A stretch of DNA of 64,000 bases, from assembly GCA_020637165.1 (NCBI GenBank), contig JACJWN010000003.1, positions 868,001 to 932,000 of the forward strand, given 5' to 3'. Each line of letters opens with the position of its first letter. The stretch's first letter is position 1. The notes beneath the pieces were generated by a model, which ran no database searches, was not told where the DNA came from, and saw only the letters and a list, made by a program, of their open reading frames with translations. Of this stretch, positions 40,946 through 43,478 are shown one piece after another. The position numbers and the translations under genes are program-made. The DNA is from Mycolicibacterium sp. Its GTDB lineage: Bacteria > Actinomycetota > Actinomycetes > Mycobacteriales > Mycobacteriaceae.

Positions 40946-41233
40946 TCAGGCCAGCGACAGGAAGAGTTTTTCCAGTTCGGCCTCGGTCAACGGGGCCTTC
41001 TCGCCGGAAGTCTCACTGAGCATGCACTGACGCAGACCGGTCGCGACGATCTTGAAGCCCGCCCGGTCCAGCGCCCGCGAAACCGCGGCGAGTTGGGTGA
41101 CCACGTCCTTGCACTCTCGGCCGTTCTCGATCATCGCGATCACCCCGGCCAGTTGACCCTGTGCCCGGCGCAGCCGGTTGAGGACGTCCGCGGCGGGCGC
41201 GTTGTCGTCACGAGTTGCAGCGCCACCAGCCAT
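40946..41233 (-). CDS. CsoR/FrmR-fold repressor of the persulfide-sensing CstR type
   Basis: 95-residue all-helical repressor. In copper-sensing CsoR the metal site is Cys-X24-His-X3-Cys. Here Cys41 and Cys70 keep the exact 29-residue spacing, but the His position is Gly66, so copper(I) binding as in CsoR is not expected. Two cysteines without the His is the CstR pattern, which senses persulfides by inter-subunit polysulfide bridges. The neighbours (rhodanese, TauE exporter, thioredoxin) and four matching operators agree. ATG with GGAGGAGG upstream. Confidence 0.85.
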
Positions 41234-41264
41234 CAGGGCCTCCTCCAGGTCGGCAATTTCAGCT

Positions 41265-41278
41265 TACCCTAGGGGGTA
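41265..41278. promoter_or_regulatory. CstR/CsoR-type operator O1
   Basis: TACCC-TAGG-GGGTA, perfect 5-bp arms, 31 bp upstream of the repressor ATG. Allows autoregulation separate from the upstream rhodanese promoter. Confidence 0.8.
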
Positions 41279-41285
41279 TGGTTTC

Positions 41286-42170
41286 TCACCCTCCGGCGGC
41301 CCGCGCCTCCACGGGCGCTTTGGAAGCGCGCAGCGGGCACCGCTCCCAACGGCCGCAGACGGTATAGACCACCGCCGCGGCCAGTATCGCCGCCGCCGCG
41401 CCGAATCCGACCGCGGGATGAAGTTCCTGACCAAGAATCACCGAGGACATCACCAGAACGAACCAGCCGAACGCCTGACGAAGGCTGTCCGGGTTCACCA
41501 ATGCCGTCAACCGCGCGCCAATCAATGCGCCGACCACCGCAGAAGCGGTCACCATCGCCGCAAGCTTCCAGTCGATCGTCACACTGCTCAGATGACCGGC
41601 CAGGCCGGCGAAGGACTTCATCGCGATGACCACCAACGAGGTGCCGACCGCGACCGGCATCGGCAGTCCGCCGAGCAGGGCCAGCGCGGGAACCACCAGG
41701 AACCCGCCACCGGCGCCGACCATCCCGGTGACCAGACCGACCACCAAACCCTCGGCCACGACCTTGAGCACGGGCATGTCATGCGCTGCGGCCTGACCCT
41801 CCCCGGCGGGCACCTGCTTGCGTCCGCGCAGCATGGCGATGGCGGTCGCGATCATCATGGCGGCGAAGCCGAGGAGCAGCACGCTTCCGGGAATGAAATG
41901 GGCCAAGACTCCGCCCGCGTAGGCGCCGGCCATCCCGGCGACACCGAAGATCAGCCCGGTCCGCCACTGCACGCGGCCTGCCCGCGCGTGCGAGACCGCC
42001 GCCACCGCACTGGTCGTCCCGACGACGAGCAACGACGTGGCGATGGCCTGCTTGGCATCCATCCCCGCGACATAGGCCAGCAGCGGAACGGTGAGAATCG
42101 ACCCGCCGCCGCCGAGCAACCCGAGCGAGATGCCGACCAGCAGGGCCAGGACGACGGTGAGGGTGATCAT
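41286..42170 (-). CDS. TauE/SafE-family sulfite/organosulfonate-type exporter
   Basis: 294 residues, about eight transmembrane helices in two repeats; each repeat carries the family glycine motif (GLLGGGGSILTVP and GMVGAGGGFLVVP). Proteins of this family export sulfite or sulfonates, or move thiosulfate. ATG start 7 bp downstream of the rhodanese stop, so the two are coupled. In CstR regulons a TauE gene is a standard member. A His-rich cluster is absent. Confidence 0.9.
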   Translation of the reverse strand: MITLTVVLALLVGISLGLLGGGGSILTVPLLAYVAGMDAKQAIATSLLVVGTTSAVAAVSHARAGRVQWRTGLIFGVAGMAGAYAGGVLAHFIPGSVLLLGFAAMMIATAIAMLRGRKQVPAGEGQAAAHDMPVLKVVAEGLVVGLVTGMVGAGGGFLVVPALALLGGLPMPVAVGTSLVVIAMKSFAGLAGHLSSVTIDWKLAAMVTASAVVGALIGARLTALVNPDSLRQAFGWFVLVMSSVILGQELHPAVGFGAAAAILAAAVVYTVCGRWERCPLRASKAPVEARAAGG

Positions 42171-42177
42171 GTCCGCC

Positions 42178-42771
42178 TCACTCCCGGCCGGTGGCGACCG
42201 GCCGCGAGCCGACGAGTTGGGCTACCACGGTCTGCGCGTCACAGGCGGCGCTGCGGTTGTAGGGCAGCTTCGCCAGCATCATCCCCATCAGACAGGTGTT
42301 GGTGGCCGCCGCGGCGGCGAGGCCGGAGCCCATCACGAAAGCGACCCACTGGACACCGGGCACGAAGGCCCCGATCAGCACCGACAGCGCCACGATCATC
42401 CCGGCCACGAACCGGACCTGCCGTTCCAGATCCCAGCGCTGCGTTCCCCGCTTGACGGCGAAACCGGCCGCCTCCCAGGCATTCATACCGCCGTCCAGGA
42501 TGTGCACGTTATCCAGGCCCGCCTCGCGTAGGCTCTGCTCGGCCTGCCCGGCGCGCTGACCGGACCGGCACACCAGCACCACCTGATCATCGAGATGGGC
42601 GCGAATCTCGTCGCGATGCTCGCGGAGCAGATCCAGCGGCACGTTGTAGGCCCCGGAGATGTGCGCGGTCTCGAACTCTCCCGCGGTACGGACGTCCAGG
42701 ACACGGGGCGAGTTTCCTGATTCCATCAGTCCGCGCAGTTCGGCGGCGCCCAGGACGGCAGGTGTCTTCAT
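42178..42771 (-). CDS. Rhodanese fused to a DUF2892 two-helix membrane domain
   Basis: 197 residues. The rhodanese domain (about 8-105) has the active loop CRSGQR with Cys68. Two transmembrane helices follow (about 121-165), as in DUF2892, ending with cysteines Cys160 and Cys177. It should transfer persulfide sulfur at the membrane face. ATG start (MKTPAVLG) with GGAGGA upstream. First gene of the rhodanese-TauE operon, transcribed away from the triple operator. Confidence 0.9.
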   Translation of the reverse strand: MKTPAVLGAAELRGLMESGNSPRVLDVRTAGEFETAHISGAYNVPLDLLREHRDEIRAHLDDQVVLVCRSGQRAGQAEQSLREAGLDNVHILDGGMNAWEAAGFAVKRGTQRWDLERQVRFVAGMIVALSVLIGAFVPGVQWVAFVMGSGLAAAAATNTCLMGMMLAKLPYNRSAACDAQTVVAQLVGSRPVATGRE

Positions 42772-42808
42772 GCGTATGTCTCCTCCGTGGAATAGCAACA
42801 TGCAGTAG

Positions 42809-42894
42809 ATACCCAGTGGGGTATGCCTGTCATCATCATAACCATACCGCGGGGGGTATCGAAACCCAGGGAATAGATATACCCGGTGGGGTAT
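42809..42894. promoter_or_regulatory. Three phased CstR/CsoR-type operators (O2, O3, O4)
   Basis: ATACCCAGTGGGGTAT (42809-42824), ATACCGCGGGGGGTAT (42844-42859) and ATACCCGGTGGGGTAT (42879-42894). Two are perfect 6-bp inverted repeats and the middle has one mismatch. Centres are exactly 35 bp apart. They fill the region between the divergent rhodanese and thioredoxin genes. Confidence 0.87.
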
Positions 42895-42933
42895 TGTACG
42901 GAGAGCAGGTTTACCGAACCGAAAGGACCACGC

Positions 42934-43308
42934 ATGGCCACCGTTGAACTCACCGCGACCGATTTCGAGTCGACGGTCACCGAGAGTCCCATCGTCCTCG
43001 TGGACTTCTGGGCTTCCTGGTGCGGGCCTTGCCGCGCCTTCGCCCCGGTCTTCGAAAGCTCGTCCCAGAAGCATCCCGACGTGGTGCACGCCAAGGTCAA
43101 CACCGAGGCCGAGCAGGAACTGGCGGGCGCTCTGCAGATCCGTTCGATCCCGACGATCATGGCGTTCCGCGAGGGTGTGCTGCTCTTCGCCCAACCCGGC
43201 GCGCTGCCGCCCGCTTCACTGGAGGAACTGATCACCAAGATCAAGGACCTCGACATGGACGAAGTCCGAGCGAGCATCGCGGCGCAGACCGCGGCCACCC
43301 AGGCCTGA
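42934..43308 (+). CDS. Thioredoxin
   Basis: 124 residues. Active site WCGPC with Cys30 and Cys33, and the cis-proline segment SIPTIM. A short acidic extension follows the thioredoxin fold (DLDMDEVRAS). ATG start with GAAAGGA upstream. Under the phased operators, it probably reduces persulfides or polysulfides formed by the rhodanese. Followed 44 bp later by the 41-residue cysteine-rich gene. Confidence 0.92.
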   Translation: MATVELTATDFESTVTESPIVLVDFWASWCGPCRAFAPVFESSSQKHPDVVHAKVNTEAEQELAGALQIRSIPTIMAFREGVLLFAQPGALPPASLEELITKIKDLDMDEVRASIAAQTAATQA

Positions 43309-43352
43309 TTCCCCGAAACAACACAACACAACCACCACGAAGGAGAAACATC

Positions 43353-43478
43353 ATGTGCTACCCGGCCACCTGCCCCCGCTGCGGCAAGACCACCTGGGGC
43401 GGCTGCGGCGAACACGCCGAACAGGTGATGCGCAACGTGCCTGCCGGTCAGCAGTGCACCTGTAACACCCAGCGCTGA
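43353..43478 (+). CDS. 41-residue cysteine-rich protein (zinc-knuckle-like)
   Basis: A small gene starting MCYPATCPRCGKTTWGGCG. Six cysteines and one histidine: Cys2, Cys7, Cys10, Cys18, His21, Cys35 and Cys37; CPRC and CTC pairs could bind one zinc. AAGGAG precedes the ATG by 9 nt and the stop is followed by a palindrome, so the gene looks real. It lies in the thioredoxin operon under the persulfide-type operators. I recall short MCYP-type proteins elsewhere but no known function. A role as zinc/persulfide or redox mini-protein is inference. Confidence 0.8.
   Translation: MCYPATCPRCGKTTWGGCGEHAEQVMRNVPAGQQCTCNTQR

Follow-up and report, generated by a model that had tools for sequence, protein, structure and literature searches.

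The window analyzed here is a 64,000-nucleotide stretch of contig JACJWN010000003.1 from Mycolicibacterium sp. GCA_020637165.1, a genome assembled in 32 contigs (3.85 Mb, completeness 94%), and the subject of this study is a block of five genes at positions 40946-43478. The genes are arranged in two divergent units and encode a CsoR-family repressor (CstR1), a TauE/SafE-family exporter, a rhodanese with a membrane segment, a thioredoxin, and a 41-amino-acid (aa) Cys/His protein, here termed the mini-protein (Table 1). All five open reading frames (ORFs) named in the original prediction were confirmed at their positions, with domains assigned by Pfam and NCBIfam and no family for the mini-protein. 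The thioredoxin also passes the NCBIfam equivalog cut-off for TIGR01068 (102.8 vs 96.8 bits). Because only 7 bp separate the rhodanese stop from the TauE start, these two genes are read as one unit.

Table 1. Genes and predicted operator sites of the block, in window coordinates.
Feature	Position	Strand	Details
CsoR-family repressor, putatively CstR-type (CstR1), 95 aa	40946..41233	-	PF02583 (E 1e-22); Cys41, Gly66, Cys70
Predicted operator TTACCCTAGGGGGTAT, one mismatch	41264..41279		30 bp before CstR1 start
TauE/SafE-family exporter, 294 aa	41286..42170	-	PF01925 (E 3.5e-52)
Rhodanese, 197 aa, with a YgaP-like membrane segment; leads the minus-strand unit	42178..42771	-	PF00581 (E 2.2e-21), PF11127 (E 3.6e-07)
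Predicted operator ATACCCAGTGGGGTAT, perfect	42809..42824		37 bp before rhodanese start
Predicted operator ATACCGCGGGGGGTAT, perfect, middle site	42844..42859
Predicted operator ATACCCGGTGGGGTAT, perfect	42879..42894		39 bp before thioredoxin start
Thioredoxin, 124 aa, WCGPC active site	42934..43308	+	PF00085 (E 3.6e-24); TIGR01068
Cys/His mini-protein, 41 aa	43353..43478	+	C2-x4-C7-x2-C10-x7-C18-x2-H21-x13-C35-x-C37

Predicted operators and repressor of the block

The operator consensus scanned was ATACCN6GGTAT, with perfect sites and sites of up to one mismatch counted apart. Five matches with at most one mismatch occur in the window, compared with a mean of 0.29 in 100 shuffles of the window sequence, none of which reached five; the fifth match (one mismatch) lies far outside the block, at 18363. 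The divergent promoter holds three perfect sites, whose starts are 35 bp apart. The prediction that every promoter of the block carries such a site is borne out with two qualifications: the site before CstR1 has one mismatch, and tauE has no operator of its own, being read as part of the rhodanese unit. Across 124 operator-gene pairs from the actinobacterial loci described below, T is enriched at the third base after the site (55/124), which fits a -10 box (TANNNT) starting within the last three bases of the operator; a repressor bound there would presumably block RNA polymerase.

As originally predicted, CstR1 has Cys41 and Cys70, which match the Cys positions of CsoR and, counted from the translation, lie 29 residues apart, and Gly66 occupies the position of the copper-ligand His, such that the C-H-C copper site is absent. 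CstR1 falls below the cut-off of the RicR model (NF052430; 40.2 vs 175 bits) and far below that of the FrmR model (NF008464; 27.7 vs 133 bits). A PF02583 search identified three CsoR-family proteins in the genome. One of these, CstR2, shares with CstR1 the replacement of His by Gly, and both are far under the RicR cut-off, while the third, located beside an IlvD-like gene (named by eye), is a RicR (178.6 bits vs the cut-off of 175) that retains C-H-C. The palindrome in the RicR promoter, ATACCCCTTGGGGGTAT (L035:5794-5810), has a spacing of N7 instead of N6, and this difference perhaps keeps the copper repressor off sulfur operators and the sulfur repressors off copper operators. N7 palindromes were rejected as general RicR sites: three occur in the genome, and since the two that are not at the RicR promoter lie at unrelated-looking genes (by eye), the spacing as a discriminator between RicR and CstR stands on a single site.

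The C-G-C pattern is found in all 30 of the best genus loci examined (own locus included), and a CstR-like homologue is present in 85/98 genus genomes (threshold E 1e-15, as in all genome surveys for this protein). Among 33 homologues picked by pattern in loci that carry the mini-protein, the copper position is Gly in 24, and Ala, Ile, Ser or Asn, together with both Cys, in 8; none has His, and one lacks the second Cys. The latter, from Mycolicibacterium frederiksbergense (L098), is read as having Arg at the second Cys position and Glu at the Gly position, and is possibly a non-sensing paralog. In a midpoint-rooted tree of 53 rows and 68 columns, a small number, the 48 actinobacterial CstR-like rows form one group (96/89) that excludes both RicR and 4m1p, a copper CsoR.

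Genes associated with the operator in this and other genomes

The original prediction described a compact local module, and while the block itself is confirmed, this description proved too narrow. Nine perfect sites lie at six places in the genome, including the three sites of the block, and an unrelated palindrome has none. Five of the six places are at rhodanese, thioredoxin, peroxiredoxin, dioxygenase/CstR, or mini-protein genes (the mini-protein counted by association). Two perfect sites precede CstR2 on a 3.6-kb contig, where CstR2 adjoins a metallo-beta-lactamase/rhodanese fusion of the persulfide-dioxygenase kind. Single perfect sites accompany a 1-Cys peroxiredoxin followed by a rhodanese, and a rhodanese with a lipoprotein-like start. 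One more perfect site (L034:5929-5944) separates a second mini-protein of 60 aa (L034:5671-5853, -) from mmpS-mmpL (L034:6069-9529, +). Domain names at these places are supported by a Pfam scan that covered all but CydB and prfC. A further gene, of metallo-beta-lactamase fold and dioxygenase-like in appearance, has a one-mismatch site upstream.

The sixth place is a perfect site (L054:5290-5305) that begins 87 bp upstream of the start of cydA, in the region separating cydAB from a gene that looks prfC-like by eye. This site is attractive because induction of cydAB by sulfide is reported from Acinetobacter and, as cited there, also from Escherichia coli and Mycobacterium tuberculosis (PMC7315123); yet it is not conserved. 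Among upstream regions (400 bp each) of 28 other mycobacterial cydA genes, none has a site at up to one mismatch and two have a site with two mismatches, and cydAB was rejected as a conserved target. These come from 29 loci fetched of 48 other cydA matches; in the 29th locus (L167) the upstream region was not placed, and no perfect site lies within the locus. Four reversed-control sites in seven related genomes (∼40 Mb) give a chance rate of ∼0.1 site per Mb, or ∼0.4 expected in this genome, so the cydAB site may be a chance one, and we regard it as somewhat doubtful that it is real.

Conservation was assessed in 79 named actinobacterial loci, the best 80 of at least 581 mini-protein hits with one dropped. 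A perfect site occurs within 600 bp upstream of the mini-protein in 50 of these loci and anywhere in the locus in 68; in total, 101 perfect sites were found in 722 kb, compared with 0, 0, 0, 0, 0, 0, 1, and 0 for eight scrambled palindromes. In 39 loci, a perfect site starts 38-129 bp before the mini-protein, and as 15 of them lack hits to all 12 query proteins, the operator goes with the mini-protein itself. Hits among the 79 loci include CstR (43), TauE (28), the dioxygenase-rhodanese query (24), thioredoxin (20), and rhodanese (15). A thioredoxin lies directly upstream of the mini-protein in 15/80 loci (gap 12-39 bp), and the same five-gene order recurs in L059, L060, and G172; L065 was also flagged by script for this order, but there is no rhodanese hit in that locus. 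Across the order, CstR is present in 44/50 genomes with the mini-protein and in 42/150 without (Fisher p 4e-14, an optimistic value given that the genomes are related).

In seven related genomes, selected for presence of the mini-protein, there are 36 perfect sites vs 4 reversed-control sites, and 22 of the 30 operator places fetched have a gene from our labelling panel of gene families within about 1.3 kb. In three of these genomes (L221, L227, and L235), one operator separates CstR and the mini-protein from MmpS-MmpL, and the second mini-protein locus of the present genome has the same divergon without CstR. A related MMPL gene occurs in L246 and L247 (one genome), an MMPL gene lies among sulfur genes on a Rhodococcus jostii RHA1 plasmid, and MmpL-like or MmpS-like genes are found in 8/80 named loci. 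Separately, in two genomes (L218 and L229), an ORF close to a perfect site resembles an enoyl-CoA hydratase by eye and is unexpected as a sulfur target.

The mini-protein family

The mini-protein starts 44 bp after the thioredoxin stop, and searches returned no Pfam family, no NCBIfam family above cut-off, and no relative in the PDB, where the best hit had E 0.16. Membership in the YnfU family of zinc-binding proteins (NF038384) was rejected, as the match spans 10 residues (E 0.062; 12.9 vs a cut-off of 36) and the likeness is limited to a short CxxC motif. In an alignment of 74 sequences (ATG starts only), the spacing C-x4-C-x2-C-x7-C-x2-H-x13-C (C2 to C35) is fixed throughout. All sequences thus have six fixed Cys/His positions and a seventh Cys or His, the last ligand, counted from the preceding Cys, being Cys at +2 in 61 sequences, His at +3 in 12, and His at +4 in 1. 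Cys2, directly after the start Met, is likewise kept in 74/74. Met is usually removed before Cys, and the mature mini-protein would therefore have an N-terminal Cys. Basic tails are present in 28/74 sequences. An AlphaFold2 model comprises a hairpin (residues 3-6 and 13-16) and a helix (19-28), with a pLDDT of 78.8 and a low pTM of 0.42.

A sample of 396 genomes from across the phylum (236 genera) contains the mini-protein in 48 genomes, belonging to 32 genera; within the order, 50 of the 200 genomes surveyed carry it (E 1e-5 or better). It is an actinobacterial family and no peculiarity of this locus. Among plasmid records, it is labelled as a hypothetical protein or unannotated in the 30 listed of 75. 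Neither three core octamers nor a word description gave a match in the open-licence literature, which is weak evidence of absence. Three contigs of metagenome-assembled genomes titled Bifidobacterium breve (L059, L102, and L133) also carry the mini-protein; in L059 and L102, the CstR and thioredoxin are 74-86% identical to those in the window, and all three look like mycobacterial contigs in the wrong bin.

Elsewhere in the window, the block is adjoined by hydrogenase-maturation genes (44651-49347, -) encoding a HypE-like protein (AIRS domains), HypD, HypC, and HypF. At 50568-54971 (-), two adjacent genes encode phosphatase-like membrane sensors with MASE1, GAF, and SpoIIE domains, and a gene for a SIMPL protein comes next.

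A proposed sulfane-sulfur circuit and its alternatives

The residues of the repressor, its operator, and its neighborhood support the predicted CstR type, and we consider it likely, with a probability of roughly 0.8, that a CstR-type sulfane-sulfur regulon has its hub in this block. In the circuit that we propose from these genomic patterns, the reduced repressor would occupy ATACCN6GGTAT sites overlapping or abutting promoters and hold down both divergent units, thioredoxin-mini-protein on one side and rhodanese-tauE on the other, with cstR1 controlled from a site of its own. A build-up of per- or polysulfide, the presumed signal, would modify Cys41 and Cys70, causing the repressor to leave the DNA. 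The rhodanese would then take up sulfane sulfur, the thioredoxin would reduce persulfides, the dioxygenase, made elsewhere, would oxidize persulfides, and TauE would export sulfite or a related anion. Our best guess is that the mini-protein is a small, metal-stabilized (probably zinc) thiol protein that would carry or buffer sulfane sulfur between the rhodanese and the thioredoxin. Outside the window, the circuit may extend to the second CstR and three other promoters with perfect sites, besides the doubtful site at cydAB, each site presumably being served by one of the CstR paralogs.

The core of this circuit is of an already known kind, to which the thioredoxin and mini-protein are added. 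The original prediction treated CstR regulons as a matter of firmicutes, and this has to be corrected, because a CstR-type circuit in actinobacteria is already published: Streptomyces coelicolor ScCsoR represses a persulfide dioxygenase (PDO), a rhodanese, TauE, and its own gene via ATACCn6GGTAT, polysulfide detaches the repressor from DNA, and sulfane sulfur modifies Cys37 (PMC7533328). The likeness extends to the two-Cys CsoR-family repressor, the gene repertoire (SCO0618-SCO0621), and the operator. As published, that circuit consists of four genes in one cluster, whereas here the dioxygenase is located elsewhere with the second CstR, the exporter has a YgaP-type rhodanese as its partner, and a thioredoxin and mini-protein are present in addition. 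The Staphylococcus aureus CstR/cst operon, as described in papers that cite it, shares the two conserved Cys and has persulfide dioxygenase, sulfide:quinone oxidoreductase (SQR), and TauE as its cargo; in contrast, no SQR was seen in the block, and the associations here are with thioredoxin, the mini-protein, and mmpS-mmpL. S. aureus CstR is likewise not known to have the copper His. For a mycobacterial CstR-type regulon, or a block with thioredoxin and mini-protein, no description was found in the open-licence literature (weak evidence of absence), which agrees with the original assessment that the block is uncharacterized.

Several observations weigh against a sulfane-sulfur regulon centered on CstR. 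The block operator resembles RicR/CsoR operators, and sequence cannot assign the paralog that binds it. Sites with up to one mismatch number 33 in the genome vs 13 for the reversed control, so one-mismatch sites, including that of CstR1, are weak evidence singly; of the 24 with one mismatch, two were looked at (CstR1 and C23:796548), picked for their G/C-rich halves. Operator-proximal genes other than the mini-protein belong to panel families in 67/79 cases vs 111/569 elsewhere in the same named loci, a descriptive figure only, because the panel was derived partly from such loci and the enrichment is inflated. The named loci were themselves chosen for having the mini-protein. Six of the 50 mini-protein genomes have no CstR hit at E 1e-15, and 8 of the 30 operator places in the related genomes have no panel gene; at one such place (L230), a frame that looks lipoprotein-rhodanese-like by eye was noticed. 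In the same 53-row tree, the nearest solved structure, 7mq1, a pneumococcal persulfide sensor with the PDB label CsoR, falls on the CstR side at just 97/71 and on a long branch.

The block could alternatively be a copper regulon, in which the repressor would sense copper in the manner of CsoR and RicR and the mini-protein would be a MymT-like metallothionein. The mycobacterial RicR/CsoR copper repressors share the fold and a G/C-rich palindromic operator with the proteins described here, the mini-protein has seven Cys/His positions, and several genes of the CsoR and RicR copper regulons responded to an H2S donor by induction in M. tuberculosis (PMC6987094). The donor also induced cysteine genes there, and its effect was cytochrome bd-dependent. 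The copper explanation was rejected and appears very improbable, mainly because the His is missing (Gly in CstR1, CstR2, and the 30 genus loci; non-His in all 33 homologues from mini-protein loci) and a separate, true RicR exists, with C-H-C and an N7-spaced palindrome in its own promoter. Further, sulfur genes lie at the sites, and no copper transporter or oxidase was recognized by eye in the ORF lists of the own-genome places. Nearly as improbable is an FrmR-like formaldehyde or electrophile sensor, or a general thiol-oxidation (disulfide) sensor without specificity for persulfide. The fold would allow it, thioredoxin and peroxiredoxin carry the site, and there is a precedent in the CsoR-family protein TTHA1953, which loses DNA affinity when disulfide-linked and does not respond to NaHS (PMC10318464). 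The low score against the FrmR model speaks against this, as do the neighbors, which are the CstR repertoire of rhodaneses, persulfide-dioxygenase-like proteins, and TauE, as labelled with a panel that held no formaldehyde gene, such that formaldehyde genes were outside the search.

The role of the mini-protein is more evenly contested. It may instead be a metal-release buffer or a zinc-finger-like regulator that binds protein or nucleic acid, an alternative to which we assign a little less than even odds. The exchange of Cys (61/74) for His (13/74) at the last ligand is as expected of a metal site, the basic tails could suit a regulator of this type, and the modelled beta hairpin and helix have the outline of a small zinc finger, although the confidence of that model is low. 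The invariant Cys2 and the thioredoxin directly upstream in 15 loci point instead to thiol chemistry. Extending the sulfane-sulfur reading further, the mini-protein would represent a new Actinomycetota-wide family (∼40-60 residues, metal-stabilized, with an N-terminal Cys after Met removal) whose dedicated task is to carry or buffer sulfane sulfur, with the partner thioredoxin as its reductant, and the regulon would also link both an MmpS-MmpL exporter and, in the present species, cytochrome bd to sulfane sulfur; in this full form, we consider the proposal rather unlikely. What appears novel is the mini-protein family and the site-defined regulon that includes mmpS-mmpL.

The published accounts consulted treat mycobacterial sulfide through respiration and copper. 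With the predicted CstR regulon, mycobacteria would register sulfane sulfur directly at the level of transcription, and through mmpS-mmpL, sulfur stress would be connected to an exporter. The mini-protein, as yet unnamed, is conserved with its operator across actinobacteria, is short enough for chemical synthesis, and has likely ligands at fixed positions, making it a clear target for study.

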